A DNA stretch of 27,396 nt, taken from positions 1 to 27,396 of IMG/VR virus record IMGVR_UViG_3300027782_000297, one strand, 5' to 3'. The translations under genes and the position numbers were made by a program. Shown piece after piece: positions 2,535 to 27,396 of this stretch. Source of the stretch: a virus. Below the pieces are notes generated by a model, which searched no databases, was not told where the DNA came from, and saw only the letters and a list, made by a program, of their open reading frames with translations. Position 1 is the first letter of the stretch. Each line of letters begins with the position of its first letter.

Positions 2535-3330
2535 TATAGTGTGTTTTTATTTTTTAATTCTTCTTTATTCTTAAAATATCCCAACCAATTCAGACAATGA
2601 ACATATGCCATCTTATATACCTCATCTTCTTTTAGTTTTAACTTATCCATTAGAGTATAAACAAAATCCAACCATATATATCGGTTATCCATTTTCTTTT
2701 TATCCCCCAATTTCTTGGCAAATCTTTCGTTATCAGTTTTTACTTCTCGTTGTTTTTGGAAGAGTCCATCGTATTGTTGTGTGATGAATCCCTTCCAGTT
2801 AAAAAAAAAGAGAATATGTGGTTAATTTCATTTATTTTAATCTTTTTAAAACTTTCCTCACGAGACATAAAACTTGTCTTGTATGATTCTAACTTACCAT
2901 TTTCTTTTTTCTTACGTAAGAAGATACATAATAACTTAGACATCACCTTTTTTATATCTCCTTCTGCTGATTGTAAGATCGTCTCAATTGAAATAACCTC
3001 ACCAGCAGTATACTTATTGAACTCTGTATATAGGAAATATTCTTCACCATCTACAATTACTGATTCTTTTTTATTTTCTGTAACTGGTTCATATACGAAT
3101 GCCAAGTTTTTAATCAATTCTTTGAAATCCTCGTAATCAATTTGTTCAATTATATCCCTACTAATTCCTGTCAACTTATGGATCACCTCAAATGTATAGA
3201 ACATACCTTGATGTATATTCGTATCAATTGAGTATAAATTCATAAATTGTTGTATCGTTACCTCTGACCAATCTGTTGGAAATTGGTATTCTTGTAATTC
3301 TTCATCTACTTCAACGTTAATCTGTATCAT
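2534..3330 (-). CDS. predicted -1 frameshift product of the tail assembly chaperone gene, 265 aa
   Basis: The 196-aa frame beginning at 3330 passes through T TTT TTA at 2806..2800. A -1 slip there gives 177 residues from the first frame plus 88 from the -1 frame (beginning NWKGFITQQYDG, ending ELKNKNTL). The stop is TAA at 2536..2534, which overlaps the ATG of the next gene as TAATG. Just upstream of the heptamer the -1 frame has TGA and TAA stops, and its first ATG is only at 2692, so most of it has no start of its own. The extension is lysine- and acid-rich with aromatic residues and looks like real coding sequence. Tail assembly chaperones of long-tailed phages are classically made as a short and a frameshifted long form (lambda gpG/gpGT). 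I infer the same here. A sequencing error in the T9 run would be the alternative. Confidence 0.7.
2740..3330 (-). CDS. tail assembly chaperone-like protein, short form, 196 aa
   Basis: The protein begins MIQINVEVDEELQEYQFPTDW and contains a SEVTIQQFMNLYSI segment and a LTGISRDIIEQI segment. The layout of a beta-rich N-terminus followed by helices resembles tail assembly chaperones of Bacteroidota phages. That assignment is by pattern and by the frameshift arrangement, not by a database match. The last 19 residues (after the slippery site) are Ser/Asn-rich and look like a non-conserved out-of-frame tail. It lies 44 nt downstream of TerL, whereas in most long-tailed phages the chaperone gene lies between the tail tube and tape measure genes. 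Confidence 0.6.
   Translation of the reverse strand: MIQINVEVDEELQEYQFPTDWSEVTIQQFMNLYSIDTNIHQGMFYTFEVIHKLTGISRDIIEQIDYEDFKELIKNLAFVYEPVTENKKESVIVDGEEYFLYTEFNKYTAGEVISIETILQSAEGDIKKVMSKLLCIFLRKKKENGKLESYKTSFMSREESFKKIKINEINHIFSFFLTGRDSSHNNTMDSSKNNEK
2757..2806 (-). promoter_or_regulatory. -1 programmed frameshift signal: T TTT TTA heptamer plus downstream stem
   Basis: The heptamer T TTT TTA (2806..2800) is in the correct phase for the upstream frame and is the same slippery sequence used by HIV-1 gag-pol. Two bases after it, TGGAAGGG (2797..2790) can pair with CTCTTCCA (2764..2757), giving eight pairs including one G-U around a 25-nt loop. The 2-nt spacer is shorter than the usual 5-9 nt, so the stem may act only after partial opening or may be incidental. 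Confidence 0.65.
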
Positions 3331-3374
3331 AATTCTTTTTATTAAAAATAAATATCTCCACTAGGGAAATGTTT

Positions 3375-4577
3375 TTATGCATTCATAAATCCTACGAATG
3401 GTTTATTACCACCTTCTTTTCGTTTACCCAATTTCATCATTATACCATACCTCATCGCATCCATTGCGTGATTGTACATATCAATGGGTTCAGGGTCATA
3501 TCCCCCATTTCTATTCTTCTTATACATATACTTGGATAGTTCTTCAAGGACATTAGTTGATCGTCGTGTAATAAGTAATTTATACTCTTGAACTAATTGA
3601 ATACCAAACTTAACACTATCCTTACCTTTCTCAACGGGTTTAACTTGATGTCCATATCGTTTTAGTTCAGCAATGGACTTAGGTTCAGCTGAGTCAGAAA
3701 AGATCTCACCAGTGACACCATTCTGTTTCATCAAATTTGATAGTTCACTATTAAGAACTCCCGTCTGATATACAACCTCATCAATAATTAAATTATCATT
3801 ATACTTATATATCCCAATCAATGCTGCTGGATCTGAACTAAAACCAAAATCTAATCCCCAACATAACAATCTTGCTTCTTCAGGTATCTTATCTATTACT
3901 TCATAATCCTTATAGATCGTTCCTTCAACTGATCCAATTTCCCCTAACCCATAAACTTTCCACCAATTCTCCCAATATGATGATGTCTTACCTTTATCCC
4001 TATTCATTTCTAATGATGATATTATATCTTCTGATAACGCTTCATTGTCTTTATATGTAAGGATAAGTAATTCTGAATTTGGTTGTGTTAGAACTTCTGT
4101 ATGAACCCAAAATGATGAGGTTGGGTTAAAGTCAATATAGATGTCCTGATCGGTTCTCATTTCTAATTGAAGGTAGGCATCATAGTTTATATTGTTTGCC
4201 TCATTCATATATAAGATATTTCTTCTTGCTCCCCTTAGTCGTTCTTCTGAATCACAACTAAAAAACTCTATATATGATCCATTTGTAAATGTGTATTTTA
4301 ATAGGGTCTTATTATAATTGTTGGGGATATACCTATTAGTGTTTTTCATTATAGACAGGAAATCTTTTAGACAACCCCTTCTAAGATGCGGTATTGTTTC
4401 TGATACAATAGAGATCTCAAGGTTAGGTTGTTTGATTGCCTTATCAATTAGGGTGGCAAGGATTGAAAATGTCTTTGATGCTGAAGTTCCCCCTTGTATT
4501 ATTTTAATACGGGACTTCATTTTTCTAATCTTTCTTAATGCCGTAGTGTATATGAACTTATTCTTCTCCTTCGTCAT
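3375..4577 (-). CDS. terL: terminase large subunit (TerL), PBSX/Terminase_3 type
   Basis: This 400-aa protein is the ATP-driven packaging motor and headful or site-specific nuclease. The ATPase domain has a Walker A variant GGTSASKT (residues 29-36) and a Walker B region ILYMNEAN (121-128). The nuclease domain shows the expected acidic residues: D243 in GLDFGFSSDP, D295 in IFSDSAEPKS and D373 in HAMDAMRYG. The length is normal for this family. Its start overlaps the end of TerS by 20 nt, as expected for a terminase pair. I see no inactivating change. Confidence 0.94.
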   Translation of the reverse strand: MTKEKNKFIYTTALRKIRKMKSRIKIIQGGTSASKTFSILATLIDKAIKQPNLEISIVSETIPHLRRGCLKDFLSIMKNTNRYIPNNYNKTLLKYTFTNGSYIEFFSCDSEERLRGARRNILYMNEANNINYDAYLQLEMRTDQDIYIDFNPTSSFWVHTEVLTQPNSELLILTYKDNEALSEDIISSLEMNRDKGKTSSYWENWWKVYGLGEIGSVEGTIYKDYEVIDKIPEEARLLCWGLDFGFSSDPAALIGIYKYNDNLIIDEVVYQTGVLNSELSNLMKQNGVTGEIFSDSAEPKSIAELKRYGHQVKPVEKGKDSVKFGIQLVQEYKLLITRRSTNVLEELSKYMYKKNRNGGYDPEPIDMYNHAMDAMRYGIMMKLGKRKEGGNKPFVGFMNA

Positions 4578-6877: not shown

Positions 6878-7234
6878 ATGAAAAAACAAAAATTATTACA
6901 ATTAACAAAAGAGGATCTTGTTGAAATTATTTTAATGATTGAAGAATCTAAACCATATGTGGGAAATTTGATTGATAATCTGATTATTGCATTAGATGGT
7001 TCTGGTGTTGCAACTTACTTTGAAAGTTTTTGGTGTGAAAATTTAAAATTAAACAATAAGGCAAGATTGAAATTAAAAACTTATGTAAATGAGTACGGTT
7101 ATAATAATGTCGTTGAAGGTATTGAGATTGCAATATTACAATATGATGATTTTAATGAAGCGATGAATAAATTAGGTGGTATATTATATAATAGATTTGG
7201 TAAAAATATGAACCAAGTAGTTAGATCAAAATGA
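6878..7234 (+). CDS. hypothetical protein at the head of the putative replication module, 118 aa
   Basis: I chose the internal ATG at 6878 over the far ATG at 6812, because the extra 22 residues are hydrophobic low-complexity sequence and would cover the divergent promoter region. The C-terminal part (LKTYVNEYGYNNVVEGIEIAILQYDDFNEAMNKLGGIL) loosely recalls helical C-terminal regions of DnaD-type replication proteins, but I would not assign it. The last codons (MNQ) are encoded by the first iteron of the array downstream. Confidence 0.55.
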   Translation: MKKQKLLQLTKEDLVEIILMIEESKPYVGNLIDNLIIALDGSGVATYFESFWCENLKLNNKARLKLKTYVNEYGYNNVVEGIEIAILQYDDFNEAMNKLGGILYNRFGKNMNQVVRSK

Positions 7235-7327
7235 ACTATAGTAAGTTCAATATGAACCAACTAGTTAGGTCAATATGAACCAAGTGTCAGTCAATATGAA
7301 CCAACTAGTTAGGTCAATATGAACCAA
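7207..7327 (+). repeat. iteron-like array: six repeats at about 22-bp spacing
   Basis: TATGAACCAA occurs at 7207, 7251, 7274, 7295 and 7318. A degenerate copy (AAATGAACTA) sits near 7228. Start-to-start distances are 21-23 bp, two helical turns. The fuller consensus is TCAATATGAACCAACTAGTT, which includes the palindrome AACTAGTT. Repeats phased in this way on one DNA face are typical of iteron origins bound by a replication initiator, or of multi-site operators. Confidence 0.8.
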
Positions 7328-7403
7328 CTCAATAACCACTATTAATTACTCATTATTAAAACCATTATTAAAAACCATTATTAAACCATTATTAAGTATT
7401 ATT
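7207..7403. other. putative replication origin (iterons plus AT-rich unwinding region)
   Basis: The repeat array is followed at about 7350-7399 by four tandem copies of an AT-rich unit (CATTATTAAAA and variants), and then directly by a winged-helix gene at 7404. Iterons, AT-rich 11-13-mers and an adjacent DNA-binding gene form the classical layout of an iteron origin. The function is inferred. The alternative is an autoregulatory operator. Confidence 0.5.
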
Positions 7404-7979: not shown

Positions 7980-8534
7980 ATGGGTAAAAGAGAAAATAGT
8001 ATTGAATGGAGAAAGAATAATCCAAAAAGAATTAAAGAATTAAATGACTATCATAACAATAAAAGAATTTTAAATATAAAACTTCAACGATTGAATGAAA
8101 TGAATATTGATAATGTAGAATGGTTTGATATCAAAGGATTGGAAGGTAGATACCTCATCAATAAAGAAGGAGAAATACGTAACGCTAAAACTTATAAAAA
8201 GAAAGCAACTAGGATTGATAGATCAGGATATAAAGTTCTAACGATTGATGCAACAACTCATTTACACCACAGGCTAGTTGCTTTAACTTTTATTTGGAAT
8301 AATGATAAAATTAATAAGAAAGAAATTAATCATATCAATGGAGTAAAATCTGATAATAGAATTGAAAACTTGGAATGGTCTTCAAGATCAGCAAATATGA
8401 AACACGCATTTGCTACTGGATTGTGGAAATCAAATTTGATAGAATGGCATAAAAAGAAAAAGGAAAAGAATGAAGAGTTATCTGAAATTAAAAAAACAAT
8501 TGACAGGCCTAGTACTGGGCATGAGACAATGTAA
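7980..8534 (+). CDS. HNH homing endonuclease with NUMOD4 domain
   Basis: After a basic N-terminus, residues 42-60 (VEWFDIKGLEGRYLINKEG) match a NUMOD4 domain. The HNH_3 core follows: HHRLVALTFIWN, then EINHINGVKSDNRIENLEW, then the SANMKHAF helix. The histidine and asparagine residues of the nuclease core are present. Freestanding enzymes of this class cut a specific site and spread their own gene. Its 3' end overlaps the sigma-like gene downstream, which may be its target. No intron boundaries are obvious. Confidence 0.92.
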   Translation: MGKRENSIEWRKNNPKRIKELNDYHNNKRILNIKLQRLNEMNIDNVEWFDIKGLEGRYLINKEGEIRNAKTYKKKATRIDRSGYKVLTIDATTHLHHRLVALTFIWNNDKINKKEINHINGVKSDNRIENLEWSSRSANMKHAFATGLWKSNLIEWHKKKKEKNEELSEIKKTIDRPSTGHETM

Positions 8535-16103: not shown

Positions 16104-19019
16104 TTAAAATTCTACACTTCTTTTTATTCTATCTACACGTCTCTGTGTACTACTAACATCAGTTTCAACCACATACGCTCGGATAGGTTGTTGTTTACTA
16201 TCTTGTTGGAATACTGTTGATGGTACTCCTTGTGTATTAGATGCAGGTAAATCAGGTACCAATTGTTTTCCTCCACCACTTTCATTAATTTGACTTAATA
16301 ATTGAGGATACATTTTTGCTGATTGTGAATTAATAACAAACTCACCCGGTGCTAACATTGAAGGAATTGAATCTATATTACTAGGACCATCACCAGGAAC
16401 AATACCACCATAAGCTGCAGTAAAAGTTTGGTTGGCAATCATGGCTACTTGTGCTGCTGCAAAAGCTGCTGCAATCGCTGCATAAATAGGTCCTGTCGCA
16501 ATACCAATGATAGGAGTAGCCGCACCTGACGCATATGCTGCTAATACTGCCTGTGTTCCTTGAATGGTTGCATTAACAATATTTAATTTCTTGGTTTCAT
16601 TAAATTTCTTTAATGCCAATTGTGTTTCTTCTTGTGCTCGTTGTTGATCTAATTGTTTAATTTTATTATCGTATTCTTCACGACTAATAAGTTCATTTCG
16701 TAATTGACCATCTAAAGATTCTTTTTCCTTATCATATAAATTATCAATTTGTTGTGATTGGGCATTAAATCTTTCTTCGTTTCTTTGTGCAATTAAATCC
16801 CCCGCTTGAGACCATATCTCCGCTATTTTATCAACATATTTACTAATAGTGTCAAGAGTTTTAGTTAAACCATCAAGTGCTGTTTCTTGAACTCCCTTAG
16901 TACCATCAATTGTCTCTTGAACTTTGGTTTGAGTTTCTTGATTTATCTTTAATACATCCTGATTATACTTCGTTTCAATCTCTTTTCTTTGTCCTGCGGT
17001 AAGTTCTTCATTCTGTAATTGTTTGTCCTTCTGAAGAGTTAATGCACTAATCTGATCTTGACCTGATCGTTTAATCAATTCAACTTCTTTATCAAGATAT
17101 TTCTTTTTAACTTCAAGAATGGCTTCTTGTTTTTTCTCTTCAGTTTCAACACCATTTGTAATTTCTCTAATTTCTTGTGCTTTCTGAAATTCAAGATCCA
17201 TCAATTCTATTTGATCCTGAATTGATTTAGTTGATTGAATTGTAATCTGTTCTTCTAAAGTATATTTGTCTTTAATATTTTGAATATCCTCATCTAAGAA
17301 TGTTTTCTTTGCCTCTAATAATTTCTTTTCACTATCAAGTAAGTTTCCATCACCTTTGGCTTTGATTTCAGCAATACCTTTATCGTAATCTGCTTGAGAT
17401 TTACCTTCAGCCTTAAATTTTTCTTCAAAGGCAGCAATCTCTCTAGCGATAGAACCATTAATTAGTTTTTGTTTTTCATCACCATATTGTTTGTTTAGAA
17501 GTTCTATTTCTCTTTCTTGAACATTATCAATTCTACTCGTGGTTATTTTTTCTAATTCTTTTTCAGCTTCTGTTTGTCTATTAATTTCAGATTTAATTTT
17601 CTCAAGTGCGTCAGCATATTTATTTGATAGGTCAATATTATTCTGTATTGCGGGTGTGTGATCATTAGTGGCATCAGCCGCTTTAAATAAGGCATTTGAT
17701 GTTGAATTTATTTCTTTATTTAAAGCATTAATTGTTGTTCCATATCCCTCAATAACATCATTTGAAATTCTAACTGAACCTAAATAATCAAATACCTCGT
17801 TTTGTAATATTTGAAATTGTTTTCCTTGACCAAAAAGTCCTGCATCTAAAAGGTTTAAATTACCAACAACCTCTTTTCCTGCTTGAACTTGTCTTGCAAA
17901 GTTTAGTATATATTGTTTTTGAGCCGTATTTAATATCCCCAATGAACCTGATAACTTTGCTATTGTTGTTTCTTGTTTTGAAAATTCAGCCTCAATTGCC
18001 TTTTCATTTGCTTGTAATCTAAATTTAACACGAGCAAAGGCAATGTAGTCAGAAACCGACTTTGTTACTTGATCTTGAAAGAATTTTTCATCTTTTAGAT
18101 TTTTAATTGTTGTTCCATAAGTGGCATTACTTTGTTTGATTAAACTTAATCTTTCTTTAGAACCCGGTAAAGATGCCTTTATTTGTGCGGTTAAAGATAC
18201 GAATCCTGATATTTGACTTGCAAATAAATTAGAACTTTCTTTAATTCTCGCATTATATTCTTCCTGAACTTTTTTAGACTTAGCTAATTCTTCGTTTTTC
18301 TTTTTCTCTTTTGCCGCAGCCTCTGAAGAACTATTTGCATATGTTATTAAACCAGCAACTAATAATCCTATTGCCGTCACAATTGCCACCAATGGTAATG
18401 CGTTAAGTGATACGGCAAATGCACCTGTGGAAACTGCTGCTCCATCAGCCGCAACCGCTTCAGCAGTTTCAGCTATTGCTACTTCTGTTGCCGAAACCGC
18501 AGTTGCCTGTTGAGCTACTGTAACAATACCCAATGTTTGAGCAAGACCCATAAACCCTGATTTGATTTGAGTGATCTTGTCTCCCAATCCACCAAAGGTT
18601 TCAATCGCCTGAGTTAAATTAAGTAATGCCCCAAATTGAGCCAATGATTTATTTAATGCTTCATTTTCAGCACCAAATAATGTTTGTGCTGCTAATACAG
18701 ATTGAAATCCTGCAACCCCTAATTGAGTTGCACTACTTAATGCCCTACCAAAGTTTTCTGTAACATTACCTGCAGTTGCATTAATTACCGCATTTGTATC
18801 TTGAATTGTGTCTCTTAATTGTCCTGCTCGTTGTGTTAACTCTTGAAATCTTGCACTACCAGGTGCAAGACCTTGAAGTTCTGTTGTGATTTGTTTTAAC
18901 TCAACCTTTAAATTAACAGACGATTTAGTTGCATTACCAATTGAATTAGATAATTGATTAACATTATCTTGTGCTTGTTTTGAATTTACATTAATATTAA
19001 TATTTGCCGTTTGAGCCAT
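16104..19019 (-). CDS. tape measure protein, 971 aa
   Basis: The longest helical protein of the window. An N-terminal coiled-coil part contains QITTELQGLAPGSARFQ. A hydrophobic segment around 203-227 (ALPLVAIVTAIGLLVAGLI) is followed by a long Lys/Glu/Gln coiled coil (about 460-830). A second hydrophobic stretch (833-866) precedes the typical ending YGGIVPGDGPSNIDSIPSML with GEFVINSQ. This sets tail length. At about 0.15 nm per residue it suggests a tail of roughly 145 nm, which fits a siphovirus. It lies directly upstream of the head protease, not beside the tail tube. Confidence 0.93.
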   Translation of the reverse strand: MAQTANININVNSKQAQDNVNQLSNSIGNATKSSVNLKVELKQITTELQGLAPGSARFQELTQRAGQLRDTIQDTNAVINATAGNVTENFGRALSSATQLGVAGFQSVLAAQTLFGAENEALNKSLAQFGALLNLTQAIETFGGLGDKITQIKSGFMGLAQTLGIVTVAQQATAVSATEVAIAETAEAVAADGAAVSTGAFAVSLNALPLVAIVTAIGLLVAGLITYANSSSEAAAKEKKKNEELAKSKKVQEEYNARIKESSNLFASQISGFVSLTAQIKASLPGSKERLSLIKQSNATYGTTIKNLKDEKFFQDQVTKSVSDYIAFARVKFRLQANEKAIEAEFSKQETTIAKLSGSLGILNTAQKQYILNFARQVQAGKEVVGNLNLLDAGLFGQGKQFQILQNEVFDYLGSVRISNDVIEGYGTTINALNKEINSTSNALFKAADATNDHTPAIQNNIDLSNKYADALEKIKSEINRQTEAEKELEKITTSRIDNVQEREIELLNKQYGDEKQKLINGSIAREIAAFEEKFKAEGKSQADYDKGIAEIKAKGDGNLLDSEKKLLEAKKTFLDEDIQNIKDKYTLEEQITIQSTKSIQDQIELMDLEFQKAQEIREITNGVETEEKKQEAILEVKKKYLDKEVELIKRSGQDQISALTLQKDKQLQNEELTAGQRKEIETKYNQDVLKINQETQTKVQETIDGTKGVQETALDGLTKTLDTISKYVDKIAEIWSQAGDLIAQRNEERFNAQSQQIDNLYDKEKESLDGQLRNELISREEYDNKIKQLDQQRAQEETQLALKKFNETKKLNIVNATIQGTQAVLAAYASGAATPIIGIATGPIYAAIAAAFAAAQVAMIANQTFTAAYGGIVPGDGPSNIDSIPSMLAPGEFVINSQSAKMYPQLLSQINESGGGKQLVPDLPASNTQGVPSTVFQQDSKQQPIRAYVVETDVSSTQRRVDRIKRSVEF

Positions 19020-19068
19020 AATACTTTATTAGTAAATATTAGTTATTTAGAAGTGTTTTTCTTGATTA

Positions 19069-19911
19069 TCATAACCACATATTTTCTTTTAATTTTGGTA
19101 GAAACTTTAATATTTCAAAATTATCTTCATCATTATATAAGTTTTTATAAAGATCTTCATCCTCAAATTTTCTACCCCAAAATTTATAAATTGCAATTTT
19201 AGTCTCAGTATATTCTAAATCTCTAAACGTATAATGATTAATTACCAAATTATCCAATACTTGAGTTTTAGTTATGAATTTATGAGGTTCAATGTTTTTT
19301 GGATTACCTAAAGCATCCACGTGAAGATAATTTTGTTTTATTATCCCATAATGTACAGATGGTAAATTTATAAAAGATTCTTTTCTTATTAATGATTTAG
19401 TATGTCTCTGAGGGTCAAATTCAATATCTTTACTATCTTTAAATTTACATTTTGTTAATTTTTCAATTATTAATTCACCATCTTTAAGTCTATAATTTGA
19501 ATTTCCCATTAACCTCCAATTCACCCCAATTTGTCCGACATTTGAGTCAAATTTAATTATGATATCTTTTAAATTATTTTCTTTTGTTGGGTATAAAAAC
19601 TCATCCACATTTAAAAAAATAAACCAATCTGAGTCAGATTCATTAATATGTTTGTTTATTATTGGCATTGAATAGTTAAGTAATATTTGTTCATTTTTAA
19701 AACTATTTTCCCCCACATTTGCATCTTTTAGTAAATCAGTAATTTTTACAATACCTTTGTCAATGTAAGGTTGTAACACTTCAAGATAGTTGTCCACACT
19801 TAAATGGTTAGTTAGGTAAAAATTATCCACACCTACAAGTAGATGGAACTCAATCCATTCTTTTAAATATTTTGCTTCATCTCTAAACTGAGAAATAATT
19901 GATATTTTCAT
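19069..19911 (-). CDS. glycosyltransferase, GT92 / Glyco_tranf_2_4-like, 280 aa
   Basis: ATG 19911 (MKISIISQFRDEAKYLKEW) was chosen because it leaves a 4-nt gap after the upstream gene. The protein shows the GT-A pattern of this family: IISQFRDEAKYLKEWIEFHLLVG, VDNFYLTNH, the metal-binding NVDEF (101-105) and LVINHYTFRD near the end. It would transfer a sugar from a nucleotide donor. It sits in the tail operon between the HAD protein and the tape measure gene, so a virion protein is a candidate acceptor. Host surface glycans are the alternative. Confidence 0.82.
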   Translation of the reverse strand: MKISIISQFRDEAKYLKEWIEFHLLVGVDNFYLTNHLSVDNYLEVLQPYIDKGIVKITDLLKDANVGENSFKNEQILLNYSMPIINKHINESDSDWFIFLNVDEFLYPTKENNLKDIIIKFDSNVGQIGVNWRLMGNSNYRLKDGELIIEKLTKCKFKDSKDIEFDPQRHTKSLIRKESFINLPSVHYGIIKQNYLHVDALGNPKNIEPHKFITKTQVLDNLVINHYTFRDLEYTETKIAIYKFWGRKFEDEDLYKNLYNDEDNFEILKFLPKLKENMWL

Positions 19912-19915
19912 ATTT

Positions 19916-20512
19916 TTATACCTTAATAATCTTGGTTTTAAGATCATCCCGTTTGGATGCTATATCAATTACTTGATCACTATTATCATAGTGTCTCACG
20001 ATGTCTAAATCCTTCAATTTTTGGACTTTGTTTGTGTTAGATCCTGTAGCATAAACTCTTGATGAGGGGATTCCTAATTCTGTTGCCAATTTTAACATAG
20101 GTGTTTTCCTATCTCTTGCTGAAATAACATACACAATATTATTATCGTCTAATTCTTTTTTAACAAGTTCTCTATTCTTTGCTACTGTCAATGTGTCATC
20201 ATAATCAAATGATACTCTCAATCTTTCCATTTTAATGTCTACACGATCATCTGTTTCTTGATTGTCGTAACCACATTTATGACAGATATAAGGATCATTT
20301 CCACCATCAGATATATTCCATTGCCAACCACAATTTTTACAAGTAATTTCACCTATGGTATTAAACTCATCATAAGTTAAACCTTGAATCGTTGCACTTT
20401 TCTTGGCATTCTTTTTACTTCCCTCATTGTTTGGGGAGTAAGTGTAACATTTACCACTATCTCCCCACTTATAACCTGATTTGTTATCTTCTTGACAATC
20501 TTTAACTGGCAT
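19916..20512 (-). CDS. zinc-ribbon plus HAD-like phosphatase fusion, 198 aa
   Basis: Three parts are visible. Residues 1-45 carry KSGYKWGDSGKCYTYSPNNE, a short motif that recurs at the ends of phage head proteins. Residues 55-85 form a zinc ribbon with C58, C61, C77 and C80. Residues 98-190 are HAD-like, with DYDDT (103-107), S131 in VISARD, a downstream Lys and D176 in RHYDNSD. The protein is a small phosphatase or nucleotidase candidate. The fusion to a virion-type motif and its place before the glycosyltransferase are unusual. Confidence 0.68.
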   Translation of the reverse strand: MPVKDCQEDNKSGYKWGDSGKCYTYSPNNEGSKKNAKKSATIQGLTYDEFNTIGEITCKNCGWQWNISDGGNDPYICHKCGYDNQETDDRVDIKMERLRVSFDYDDTLTVAKNRELVKKELDDNNIVYVISARDRKTPMLKLATELGIPSSRVYATGSNTNKVQKLKDLDIVRHYDNSDQVIDIASKRDDLKTKIIKV

Positions 20513-20528
20513 AACTTAATTTTTAATT

Positions 20529-20891
20529 TTATTTATATTCAAATAGATCGGTATCAATGATCTCAATATCTGTTGCTTTGATATCAAACTTTCTTGAAGT
20601 AAGAATGATAAACATCCCATAGTACTTTAGATTTAATCTAACACGATCTGGTAGGTTATAATACTCTATATCAATAATTCCTTTAACCTCATCACTAATA
20701 GTGTCTATATCCTCTCCATTTAAAGTATAATTACCTTCTATAAATGTGTCTCCTCTATCATTTTTATACTTATAACTAATTATTAACTCATTGAAATCAC
20801 TTTTGATTTGAATATTAGTTATAATACCAACCATCTTACCATATATATTACGTTCATTTGTATATACAGATGATTTAGTTATTATCTTCAT
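20529..20891 (-). CDS. hypothetical beta-rich protein, 120 aa
   Basis: A protein with alternating hydrophobic and polar strands (GIITNIQIKSDFNELIISYKYK, then GMFIILTSRKFDI) and no hydrophobic leader. It lies in the tail operon, 1 nt after the preceding gene, so a minor structural role is plausible. The family is not recognised. Confidence 0.55.
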   Translation of the reverse strand: MKIITKSSVYTNERNIYGKMVGIITNIQIKSDFNELIISYKYKNDRGDTFIEGNYTLNGEDIDTISDEVKGIIDIEYYNLPDRVRLNLKYYGMFIILTSRKFDIKATDIEIIDTDLFEYK

Positions 20892-20892
20892 A

Positions 20893-21114
20893 TTAGAAAA
20901 TTAAACCAGTAACGGGTGTTGGATTACACCATTCAATCATAGGTAAATCTTTAACCCATAAAAACTCTTCATTAGTTGTGTTATCAATTTCTTCACTTGA
21001 AATAATCCAATTGTCATTACAATCTTTTACTGGATTATAATACCAATCTATCGTAACCATTTGATCTGTTAATAAATCTTTTTCTGCTTCTGTTAATAGT
21101 CCTACTAGTGTCAT
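20893..21114 (-). CDS. hypothetical protein, 73 aa
   Basis: A small acidic protein with an internal similarity to other small phage tail proteins only at the level of composition (LTEAEKDLLTDQMVTIDWYY, then NPVKDCNDNWIIS). It lies 10 nt after the stop of the broken tail gene. It is not recognised. Confidence 0.5.
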   Translation of the reverse strand: MTLVGLLTEAEKDLLTDQMVTIDWYYNPVKDCNDNWIISSEEIDNTTNEEFLWVKDLPMIEWCNPTPVTGLIF

Positions 21115-21124
21115 ATTTTTTTAT

Positions 21125-22037
21125 TTAATTTTGTCTTCCTAATGTTGTTTGGCATGCTTGAACTACCGAATATAGATTTGATGCATCAGTTGATGTTAAA
21201 TTTGTACCAGCAGAGGTAAAACAAAAATTTTGATTAGAATAACCATCACCATAAGGACTACCATTTAAATTAAGAGTTCCAATAAATAGATCTTGTACTG
21301 ATATACCATTACCACCACTTGATCCATTTAAATTTAATGTTCCATTTAGATAATATTTAGGGGAATTTGCTGATCCTTTTGTTATAACATAAAATCCTTT
21401 AACCGTTGAAATACTATTACTATCAACTCCTTCATTAAATCTGGCAACATAATTTGATGATCTTACCCCAAATAATGAATTTTGTTATAACATAAAATCC
21501 TTTAACCGTTGAAATACTATTACTATCAACTCCTTCATTAAATCTGGCAACATAATTTGATGATCTTACCCCAAATAATGAACTATATGATAGACCACCT
21601 GTACTAGGTAATACACCAATATCAACAGTATCACCTTTACTCATCGCATTGTTGGTGTTAAGATATATTGTCATATGCTCATTATTAAATGTTGCATTAC
21701 TAGCAGGATTGTAATAAGTTTTTGCGTAACCATTTGTACCATTAGGTCTAAATCCATCTGTGTATGTTATTCCACCAAAGAAAGTTAATCTAAATGCCGC
21801 ATCTAAATCTCTTGGATCTTTTAAGTTATACTTATTTGATGTTGCCGTACCCCCAACAAAAGGATAGATTACTTTTAATTTAGTCCATAACCCATATGAC
21901 TTTAGATCTACAACCATAGTGTTTATTGCACTTTCTATAGTTGGACTTGTATTACCAATTGCAGTTAAAAATGCTGCAGCATCTGGATCTAATGATGATC
22001 CTACTGATTTAATAAATGAAAAAGGATATACAATCAT
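21125..22037 (-). pseudogene. tail protein gene frameshifted by a 103-bp tandem duplication
   Basis: The frame from ATG 22037 encodes a conserved Bacteroidota phage tail protein: VDLKSYGLWTKLKVIYPFVG, NLKDPRDLDAAFRLTF and NGTNGYAKTYYNPASNATF, followed by a lectin-like beta region. It stops early at 21435 (200 aa) because an exact 103-bp tandem duplication shifts the frame. Removing one copy restores a single frame that continues VITKGSANSPKYYLNGTLNL and ends QTTLGRQN at a TAA (21127..21125), giving 269 aa. The start abuts the stop of the 525-aa fibre gene. The protein is probably a tail tip or fibre part. The copies are identical, so the event is recent or an assembly artefact. Confidence 0.85.
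21377..21582. repeat. exact tandem duplication, 2 x 103 bp
   Basis: Positions 21377-21479 and 21480-21582 are identical as read base by base, and the flanking bases differ. The unit starts TTTTGTTATAAC and ends CCAAATAATGAA. Because 103 is not a multiple of three, the encoded tail protein is put out of frame. Confidence 0.95.
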
Positions 22038-23615
22038 TTAAGTGAAGTTTTGTATATAAGAAGCGAAGTATTTAGATCCATCATAAATGAATGTATACAC
22101 ATCAAATTTATTGGCAGTTGCCGTCATAGTAGGTGTTGTCCCTCCTGCCCAAGTAACTGTACCTGGCCAAGTAATAGTGTTAGAACCACCTGATGATTGT
22201 TTTATTATCAATATATAAGTTGCTCCTGAATTTGGATTACTAAATGTAAAAGTTGTTGATGCTCCTAATGTATATTCTTGAACATTACCATTATTAAAAT
22301 TAACAGTTGTTGCACTTGTTGTTGTTCCTGTTGTTGGTAATGTTACCCAAGTTTGTCCTGATGTAATTTGTATATTACCAGTATAGGGTGATGCAAACGA
22401 TGTTCCTGATGTTCCATTAGTTCCTGAAGCTCCATTAGATCCACTTGTCCCATTTGTTCCTGATGCTCCATTAGTTCCTGATGTCCCGTTAGTTCCATTT
22501 GCTCCACCTGTAGTTTTAATTACTTTATTATTACTATCTAATCCAAGAAATGATATTGAAGTTCCTGTGGTTGCTGATACAATAGTTAAATCAGGAACAT
22601 AAACCATATCATTAGTTGTTCCTGTTATTCCACTACCACCAATTATTGCAGATCTTAATGTACCATTTAATGCATTATTAATTCCACCTATTATGGCAAG
22701 ATAAGCAGATGGAACTCCAATAATTTTATTAGATAAACCTGTTATAAAATTATAACTACCTCCTGAAGTTATATTATTTCCACCAAATACCGAAGTATAA
22801 CTACTATTAGTTAAAGTATTACCTCCACCAAAAATATAATTATAAAAACCACTTGTTGATGTATTACTATTACCAAAAATACCACTACCTGCACTATTAG
22901 ATGTATTTGAAGAACCTATAACAATATTACCTAAAATTCCTGGTGATCCAGATGTGCCTAAATTATTATCATTTCCAACTAATAATGTATACTCATTTGT
23001 ATTAGTATTTCCAGTGCCGGCAATTCCTGTTATACTTCCTAATGTTGATCCTGATGTCCATAATATATCTCCACTTATACCCGAAGTTCCATTACTTCCT
23101 GAAGTCCCTGAAGAACCATTAGTTCCATTTGTACCTGATGTTCCATTAATTCCTGAAGTACCATTAGTTCCCGATGCTCCATTAGTTCCTGAAGTTCCTG
23201 CAACTCCACTAGTTCCTGAACTACCTGATGATCCACTTCCACCTGTTGAAGTAATCGTATTACCTGAAGCATCTAAAGCTAGAAATGTTGAACTTGAACC
23301 TGAACTTAATCCTGAATATACAATGGTATTACCATTAGAAATTACAATATCAAATCCATTACTGAAATTACTTGTATATAATACTTCACCTAATGTTGGT
23401 GTTGTTGCAGTTAAACCTGATAATGATATTGGATAGATACCATTGTCCGTTCTAACCCATAATGCATCATCTGTAGTATTACAATACATCTCACCGATAA
23501 ATAAATCAGTAGGAATCATTTCATTCAATGTAGTACCTGTAGGTATAGTTGGAACTTGTCCTGTTAGACCTGTTCTCTTTAATAATAATCGTGAGTATTC
23601 TATCTTATCAGACAT
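22038..23615 (-). CDS. collagen-like / beta-roll tail fibre, 525 aa
   Basis: Residues 34-68 (IPTDLFIGEMYCNTTDDALWV) resemble the N-terminal linker seen on many phage fibres. Collagen blocks lie at 125-183 and 370-406. Between them (205-345) is a series of N-x-I-x-G-G-x-N-type repeats (IFGGGNTLTN, VFGGNNITSG, ITGLSNKIIG, IIGGINNALN), like the left-handed beta-rolls of trimeric adhesins. The C-terminal 110 residues are a beta-rich head (TGNIQITSGQTWVTL to KYFASYIQNFT). A trimeric host-binding fibre is the best inference. Confidence 0.8.
   Translation of the reverse strand: MSDKIEYSRLLLKRTGLTGQVPTIPTGTTLNEMIPTDLFIGEMYCNTTDDALWVRTDNGIYPISLSGLTATTPTLGEVLYTSNFSNGFDIVISNGNTIVYSGLSSGSSSTFLALDASGNTITSTGGSGSSGSSGTSGVAGTSGTNGASGTNGTSGINGTSGTNGTNGSSGTSGSNGTSGISGDILWTSGSTLGSITGIAGTGNTNTNEYTLLVGNDNNLGTSGSPGILGNIVIGSSNTSNSAGSGIFGNSNTSTSGFYNYIFGGGNTLTNSSYTSVFGGNNITSGGSYNFITGLSNKIIGVPSAYLAIIGGINNALNGTLRSAIIGGSGITGTTNDMVYVPDLTIVSATTGTSISFLGLDSNNKVIKTTGGANGTNGTSGTNGASGTNGTSGSNGASGTNGTSGTSFASPYTGNIQITSGQTWVTLPTTGTTTSATTVNFNNGNVQEYTLGASTTFTFSNPNSGATYILIIKQSSGGSNTITWPGTVTWAGGTTPTMTATANKFDVYTFIYDGSKYFASYIQNFT
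22398..22508 (-). repeat. collagen-coding repeat block, distal part of the 525-aa fibre
   Basis: Encodes residues 370-406, Gly-X-Y triplets (GTN, GTS, GAS, GSN) of the same type as the blocks in the 821-aa gene. Confidence 0.8.
23067..23243 (-). repeat. collagen-coding repeat block, proximal part of the 525-aa fibre
   Basis: Encodes residues 125-183, Gly-X-Y triplets (GSS, GTS, GTN, GIN). DNA units are close to those at 441-767 and 1116-1604. Confidence 0.8.
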
Positions 23616-26600: not shown

Positions 26601-27038
26601 GTTATTAACATTACGATAATGACTAAACTCATCAAAGTTTAATTGATCAATATAGTAATCTGAGAATGCTCCAATAATATTTTTGAATAAACCAGTAATA
26701 ACAACCTCATATTCAACCATCTTTTGATTGGTAACAATATTTAAAAGTTGTAAATTACCATAGAATACCATCTCATCCCCAATTAGAATTTGTGTTGGTA
26801 ATGATTTCTTTGGATTAAAATTAGTATCAGATATATCAATATTTATTTCAAATATATTTTGAAAGAAATCATTATTATTTGGGGTACCAGGAATTAATAT
26901 TGTTTTAGAGTAAGATGATTTCTTTGTTGAAATATCTTCAATATCATCTATCTGATAAGTTAAAGATATGTCAAAATTGTCGTATGTCTCAATCTGTCTA
27001 CCCTGTGATATAATCTTAAATTGGTTAATTGCTGCCAT
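23676..27038 (-). CDS. large tail / distal-tail protein with Pro/Thr-rich C-terminus, 1120 aa
   Basis: The N-terminal domain (about 1-150: [47 protein letters not shown]) follows the pattern of large tail proteins of Bacteroidota siphoviruses. A long beta-rich central body follows. Residues 920-975 contain beta-roll repeats ([35 protein letters not shown]). The last 88 residues (1033-1120) are an almost pure Pro/Thr tail ([15 protein letters not shown] type). Its ATG overlaps the preceding stop as TAATG. It probably forms the tail tip or a side structure that connects to the fibres encoded next. Confidence 0.75.
23679..23942 (-). repeat. low-complexity Pro/Thr coding region
   Basis: Encodes the final 88 residues of the 1120-aa protein, with recurring TPTPT, TPSPT and TLTPT units. 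The region is 6- and 12-bp periodic and likely to vary in length by slippage. Confidence 0.85.
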
Positions 27039-27396
27039 TAAAATCTAAATTCATTGTTTGATACTCTCACATTAAAAGTATATGAGAATAATTGTTCGTT
27101 TATGTTCTTATAAATCTCAGTTTTTGGTTGATCTAAATGACAATTAAATAAACGATTGTCAGGGGTTTGAATATATACGGAAGGTGATTGTACCAAGTCA
27201 TTGATTAAATACCTCTCAAACTCATATAACCACCCTGAATTTAAGGTTAAAGATTCTCTACTTCTTTCATAGAATACCTTTTCCCCAACTCCATAATCTT
27301 CATAATCAAATGTATTGTTTTCCCAATTACCTTCTTGTTGATAATAAGTTTTCTTCTCACTCTCAATATAATCACGACTCACATAAATGAAAGGGT
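27038..27396 (-). CDS. C-terminal part of a tail protein, cut by the right edge
   Basis: The frame is open to the window edge. The only in-window start would be GTG at 27382, but codons upstream (PFIY) remain open, so I treat it as a 5'-truncated gene. The visible part has the pattern [34 protein letters not shown] and [14 protein letters not shown], typical of the C-terminal region of Bacteroidota phage minor tail proteins. Its TAA overlaps the ATG of the 1120-aa gene. Confidence 0.65.

Follow-up and report, generated by a model that had tools for sequence, protein, structure and literature searches.

The stretch of DNA analysed here, which we call the window, is the complete IMG/VR record IMGVR_UViG_3300027782_000297 (27,396 nt, class linear), and according to its gene annotation it is a tailed-phage fragment with terminase, portal, protease and holin genes, together with a 971-aa gene read as the tape measure. 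The source is a lake virus of bacteria, a Bacteroidota-type phage; its nearest isolate terminase relatives are Flavobacterium psychrophilum phages (52% identity), the host is likely in the Bacteroidota, and megablast against isolate phages gave zero matches. The genes and features at the locus under study are as follows:

18983-22474, no strand: variable module, not covered by any near-identical sister contig
20893-21114, minus strand: conserved partner gene of 73 aa, directly downstream of the lectin gene, with a same-strand homologue in 137 of 146 lectin loci (IMG/VR)
21125-21478, minus strand: remainder of the lectin gene in the original frame, 34 residues repeating the first copy plus 83 residues (translation)
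21377-21479, minus strand: 103-bp unit, 3' copy in the gene (second in translation order), 100% identical to 21480-21582
21480-21582, minus strand: 103-bp unit, 5' copy in the gene (first in translation order), 100% identical to 21377-21479
21435-22037, minus strand: open reading frame of the lectin gene as it stands, 200 aa, with 186 native and 14 out-of-frame residues (translation)
22038-23615, minus strand: collagen-like tail fibre gene, immediately ahead of the lectin gene in translation order (PHROG collagen-like minor tail / tail fibre, Pfam Collagen)

As a whole, the window is part of a map that is circular or circularly permuted, as 2263 nt of the sister contig L086 (12443-14705) that are absent from the window connect both window ends, and this stretch holds most of a 650-aa gene whose final part is window 27038-27396. 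Elsewhere in the window, iteron-like 23/44-bp repeats at 7205-7329, a candidate replication origin or operator, immediately precede an ORF that has a helix-turn-helix and weakly matches replication protein O, and a HNH/NUMOD4 homing-endonuclease-like ORF (7980-8534) stands amid small plus-strand genes.

Tandem Repeats Finder and a second repeat search agree on a period of 103, with 2.0 copies and a 100% match over 21377-21582, and an exact self-match of the window found this to be its sole exact tandem duplication of 30-400 nt. An exact repeat of 103 nt is far beyond chance. The two perfect tandem copies and the junction at 21479/21480 described in the sequence-only reading were thus correct in coordinates and arithmetic, and its claim that the event is very recent was borne out as well, since the copies are identical. 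The 5' copy is 86% identical to the single copy in the relative L002. The bases flanking the unit differ at both ends, which makes this a duplication with zero microhomology. A target of a diversity-generating retroelement was considered and ruled out, because the copies are identical and adjacent and are not two similar repeats differing at adenines.

The lectin gene starts at 22037 and runs through 186 native codons to the junction, followed by 14 shifted codons and a stop, since the extra 103 bp (34 codons plus 1 nt) put the reading out of frame; with the second copy the original frame resumes and stays open to the stop at 21125. Translation therefore confirms the frame break that had been claimed from the letters alone, and the further claim that deletion of one copy restores a 269-aa protein also holds, as 186 + 83 residues give 269, exactly as in the intact L002 and L003 orthologues. 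No ATG, GTG or TTG was found in the remainder frame (21125-21478). In the predicted structure of an orthologue, the lost residues 187-269 comprise the strands 192-196, 199-203 and 237-243 and the C-terminal helix 248-264; going by this model, the truncated product should not fold, and a working product from the two-copy gene is unlikely.

Regarding the function of the intact gene, no Pfam model matches the product and there is no solved relative by sequence, while in PHROGs the family is present without an assigned function. For the orthologue, structure prediction (pLDDT 85.8) gives a two-sheet jelly roll of the concanavalin-A-like / LamG kind, whose nearest solved fold is AbnA domain 4 (Z 17, rmsd 2.6, 181 aligned residues); in fold only, it is also like the lectin-type domains of sialidases and clostridial toxins, and its BFVD matches are phage collagen/lectin proteins. 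In some relatives the lectin domain is fused into a longer protein, and a scan of genome contigs for the lectin gave only two matches, both distant MAG relatives. The 269-aa lectin most likely helps the particle to bind glycans on its Bacteroidota host, as far as the model and the neighbouring genes indicate. It resembles the concanavalin-A-like / LamG jelly-roll proteins of phages (PHROG 17104) in predicted fold, neighbours and family; for this family the fold is a predicted one and sugar binding is putative. The host-contact role proposed earlier is therefore plausible for a lectin jelly roll beside a collagen-like fibre gene, whereas the more precise term “tail-tip” goes too far, as PHROGs assign no function and the placement follows from neighbours and fold. 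The small partner gene (20893-21114) matches no Pfam family; proteins of this kind, of about 70 aa, may be a partner or an assembly helper of the lectin protein.

The surroundings of the gene are variable. Identity to L002 is about 90% in the block 20515-22496 but only about 67% in its flanks, so that the duplication lies in a mosaic, exchangeable tail module, and the block is, judged by this contrast in identity, a recent tail-module exchange. The variable module also holds a family 92 glycosyltransferase gene (19069-19947), and at the DNA level the relatives compared hardly match window 19001-20000. Near-identical contigs from other IMG samples (L086, L087, L168 and L169) share 99.7-99.98% identity with the window, L086, L087 and L169 being gapless over more than 23 kb and L168 having three gaps in 10.6 kb. 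None of the four spans the duplication locus or 18983-22474; they break at 18982, 18461 and 22475, and every sister contig ending near the module indicates a region that is hard to assemble. The first 127 nt of L086, and no more, are identical to window 22475-22601; about 430 nt follow that diverge in the fibre gene, after which L086 is identical again. The middle of the fibre gene (22602 to about 23030) is replaced there (128 to about 595 of L181, the start of the L086 contig), and from 23037 on L086 is 99.98% identical. Because the last k of a JGI SPAdes recipe is 127, the 127 shared nucleotides are probably the trace of a graph branch between coexisting alleles, and this suggests that two fibre alleles coexist in the L086 sample.

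The homologues in L002, L003, L005 and L007 are intact, with 268-279 aa and one copy each; the L002 orthologue (269 aa, single copy) is 90% identical across the N-terminal 186 residues, and that of L003 (269 aa, single copy) is 72% identical. All of 86 family loci were intact in a sample biased to full-length matches, as were 78 of 80 in a less biased sample chosen by the N-terminal half only, where of the two others one is truncated at the end of its contig and the other (L299) has an unrelated indel. A frame-breaking duplication at the lectin site was found in none of the 86 + 80 family loci. In L299 it is a simple indel without duplication that puts the lectin-family gene at 3177-3940, the first of two tandem lectin domains, out of frame at a comparable place. 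An exact search of IMG/VR with 33 nt of the unit returned no other contig, hence there is no same-lineage one-copy allele for comparison. In a census of 2.28 Mb of other non-redundant IMG/VR sequence, the only duplications were in-frame ones of collagen repeats, 36, 63 and 72 bp long, and a further 0.79 Mb held no tandem duplications; such events, whatever their kind, are rare in comparable contigs, and those found are too few for statistics on a pile-up at assembler k values.

We infer that the DNA molecule truly carries the duplication, and the reading that we favour over a joining artefact, with a probability somewhat above even, is that of a real, recent and accidental null allele. Several observations argue in its favour, namely the exact repeat, the intact single-copy orthologues, the gapless alignment of the sisters L086, L087 and L169, and a local de Bruijn test. 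In this test the two copies emerged as a single contig only from k = 104 upwards, which requires reads that cross the junction, and a mixture of molecules with one and with two copies would interrupt the contig; the argument presumes that the assembler works on k-mers and does no joining afterwards. Against it stand the zero microhomology, which is unusual for slippage, and the expectation that a deleterious allele should vanish quickly, yet the unbroken contig suggests that it is the main allele. To put this together as a course of events, one very recent accidental 103-bp tandem duplication would have arisen within the tail-lectin gene, the resulting frame shift would leave only the first 186 residues correctly made, the product would be dead, and the phage would tolerate the null allele because the module is exchangeable. 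Deletion of one copy could then revert the gene, which would not amount to a two-way switch. As a single recent accident, the duplication is ordinary in kind.

The most serious competitor, which we regard as quite possible albeit below an even chance, is that the true phage has one copy and that two contigs sharing a 103-nt end (k = 103) were joined with the overlap kept, amid coexisting alleles. The JGI MEGAHIT k-list is 23,43,63,83,103,123 (PMC6081815, PMC6646334), so that 103 is a JGI MEGAHIT k, although the record's own assembler may differ. In a k = 103 graph of the two-copy locus, exactly the 103-nt unit is common to the unitigs of the two flanks, whose lengths (1079 + 1021 = 2100) add up to that of the locus; the lack of microhomology at the unit ends, the opening of L086 with 127 shared nt (as a k = 127 branch would leave where alleles coexist, 0.9 kb from the unit) and the breaks of the sister contigs at 18982, 18461 and 22475 also fit such a joint. 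However, the MEGAHIT recipe ends at k 123, where joints would be expected, and without k-mers that span it the junction cannot arise from a de Bruijn graph. Moreover, no such duplication occurs in the 2.28 Mb + 0.79 Mb of other IMG/VR sequence, and about 5-9% of the lengths that could be resolved would match some JGI k by luck. A literature search gave no direct description of k-length false tandem duplications. Another form of artefact, a rotated circle in which a k-length end repeat is kept inside, is ruled out, as the window does not contain the 2263 nt that lie between its ends in L086. The earlier caveat of an assembly artefact or a mixed population was apt.

It is very unlikely, in our estimate, that the two-copy allele is the main lake form and reverts often by deletion, which would make it a self-restoring “off” tail lectin in an exchangeable host-range module. 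We give even less credence to reversible phase variation of the host-contact protein through gain and loss of the 103-bp copy, the on/off switch of the sequence-only reading. The unit does shift the frame, the adjoining fibre gene differs between near-identical phages, and in deletion assays in E. coli 101-bp tandem tetA repeats are prone to losing one copy and are often deleted (PMC8378479). Those repeats are alike in unit length and head-to-tail layout, but they sit on an engineered plasmid and were assayed in the deletion direction only. As the unit ends have no homology, the one-copy state has no repeat at either end, and a one-copy phage has no slippage template with which to remake the duplication. 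Of the easy reversal by slippage that was proposed, the loss from two copies to one is therefore plausible, the repeats being present, while the regain from one to two would be untemplated. Lectin genes of the relatives are intact, no other locus has such a duplication, and within the window the repeat is the sole exact tandem duplication in the 30-400 nt range; with unit ends lacking homology, and neither a second copy nor a variable copy number in relatives, the switch is unsupported.

Phase-variable tandem-repeat loci likewise have a frame-changing repeat unit, but they keep a repeat tract in both states, which is missing here (zero microhomology, single-copy relatives), and their copy number differs between related genomes, which was not seen in the 86 and 80 family loci; the window has neither a conserved repeat in the one-copy state nor variation in relatives. 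In Enterococcus phage EfV12-phi1, tandem duplications inside a tail-fibre gene arose in 4/4 coevolution replicates (PMC6365445). Both cases are tandem duplications within a host-contact gene whose copy number can vary between molecules, yet the EfV12-phi1 duplications are 1.8 kb long, in frame, repeatedly selected and known from a cultured phage with reads, while that of the window is 103 bp long, frame-breaking, seen once and known from the assembled record alone.

Finally, it is scarcely credible that a full-length protein, a 303-aa variant with 34 repeated residues, is made by +1 ribosomal frameshifting, since although neither frame has a stop between 21484 and 21435 (a 50-nt overlap), this overlap has no X-XXY-YYZ slippery heptamer, there is no homopolymer or A/T run of 6 or more near the junction, the codons before the stop form no recognised shift-prone motif, and the repeated residues would insert strands in the jelly roll.

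If the accidental null allele is real, as we favour, it would be a further example of an environmental-phage tail adhesin gene lost by a mutation that deletion can reverse; if the repeat is an artefact, it would be a warning that k-length joints can produce frame-broken host-contact genes in assembled viral contigs. Of greater use is the setting, a lectin with its conserved small partner in a module that differs between phages 99.9% identical elsewhere, and this pair, together with the exchange of fibre-gene alleles, is what a phage specialist might pursue.
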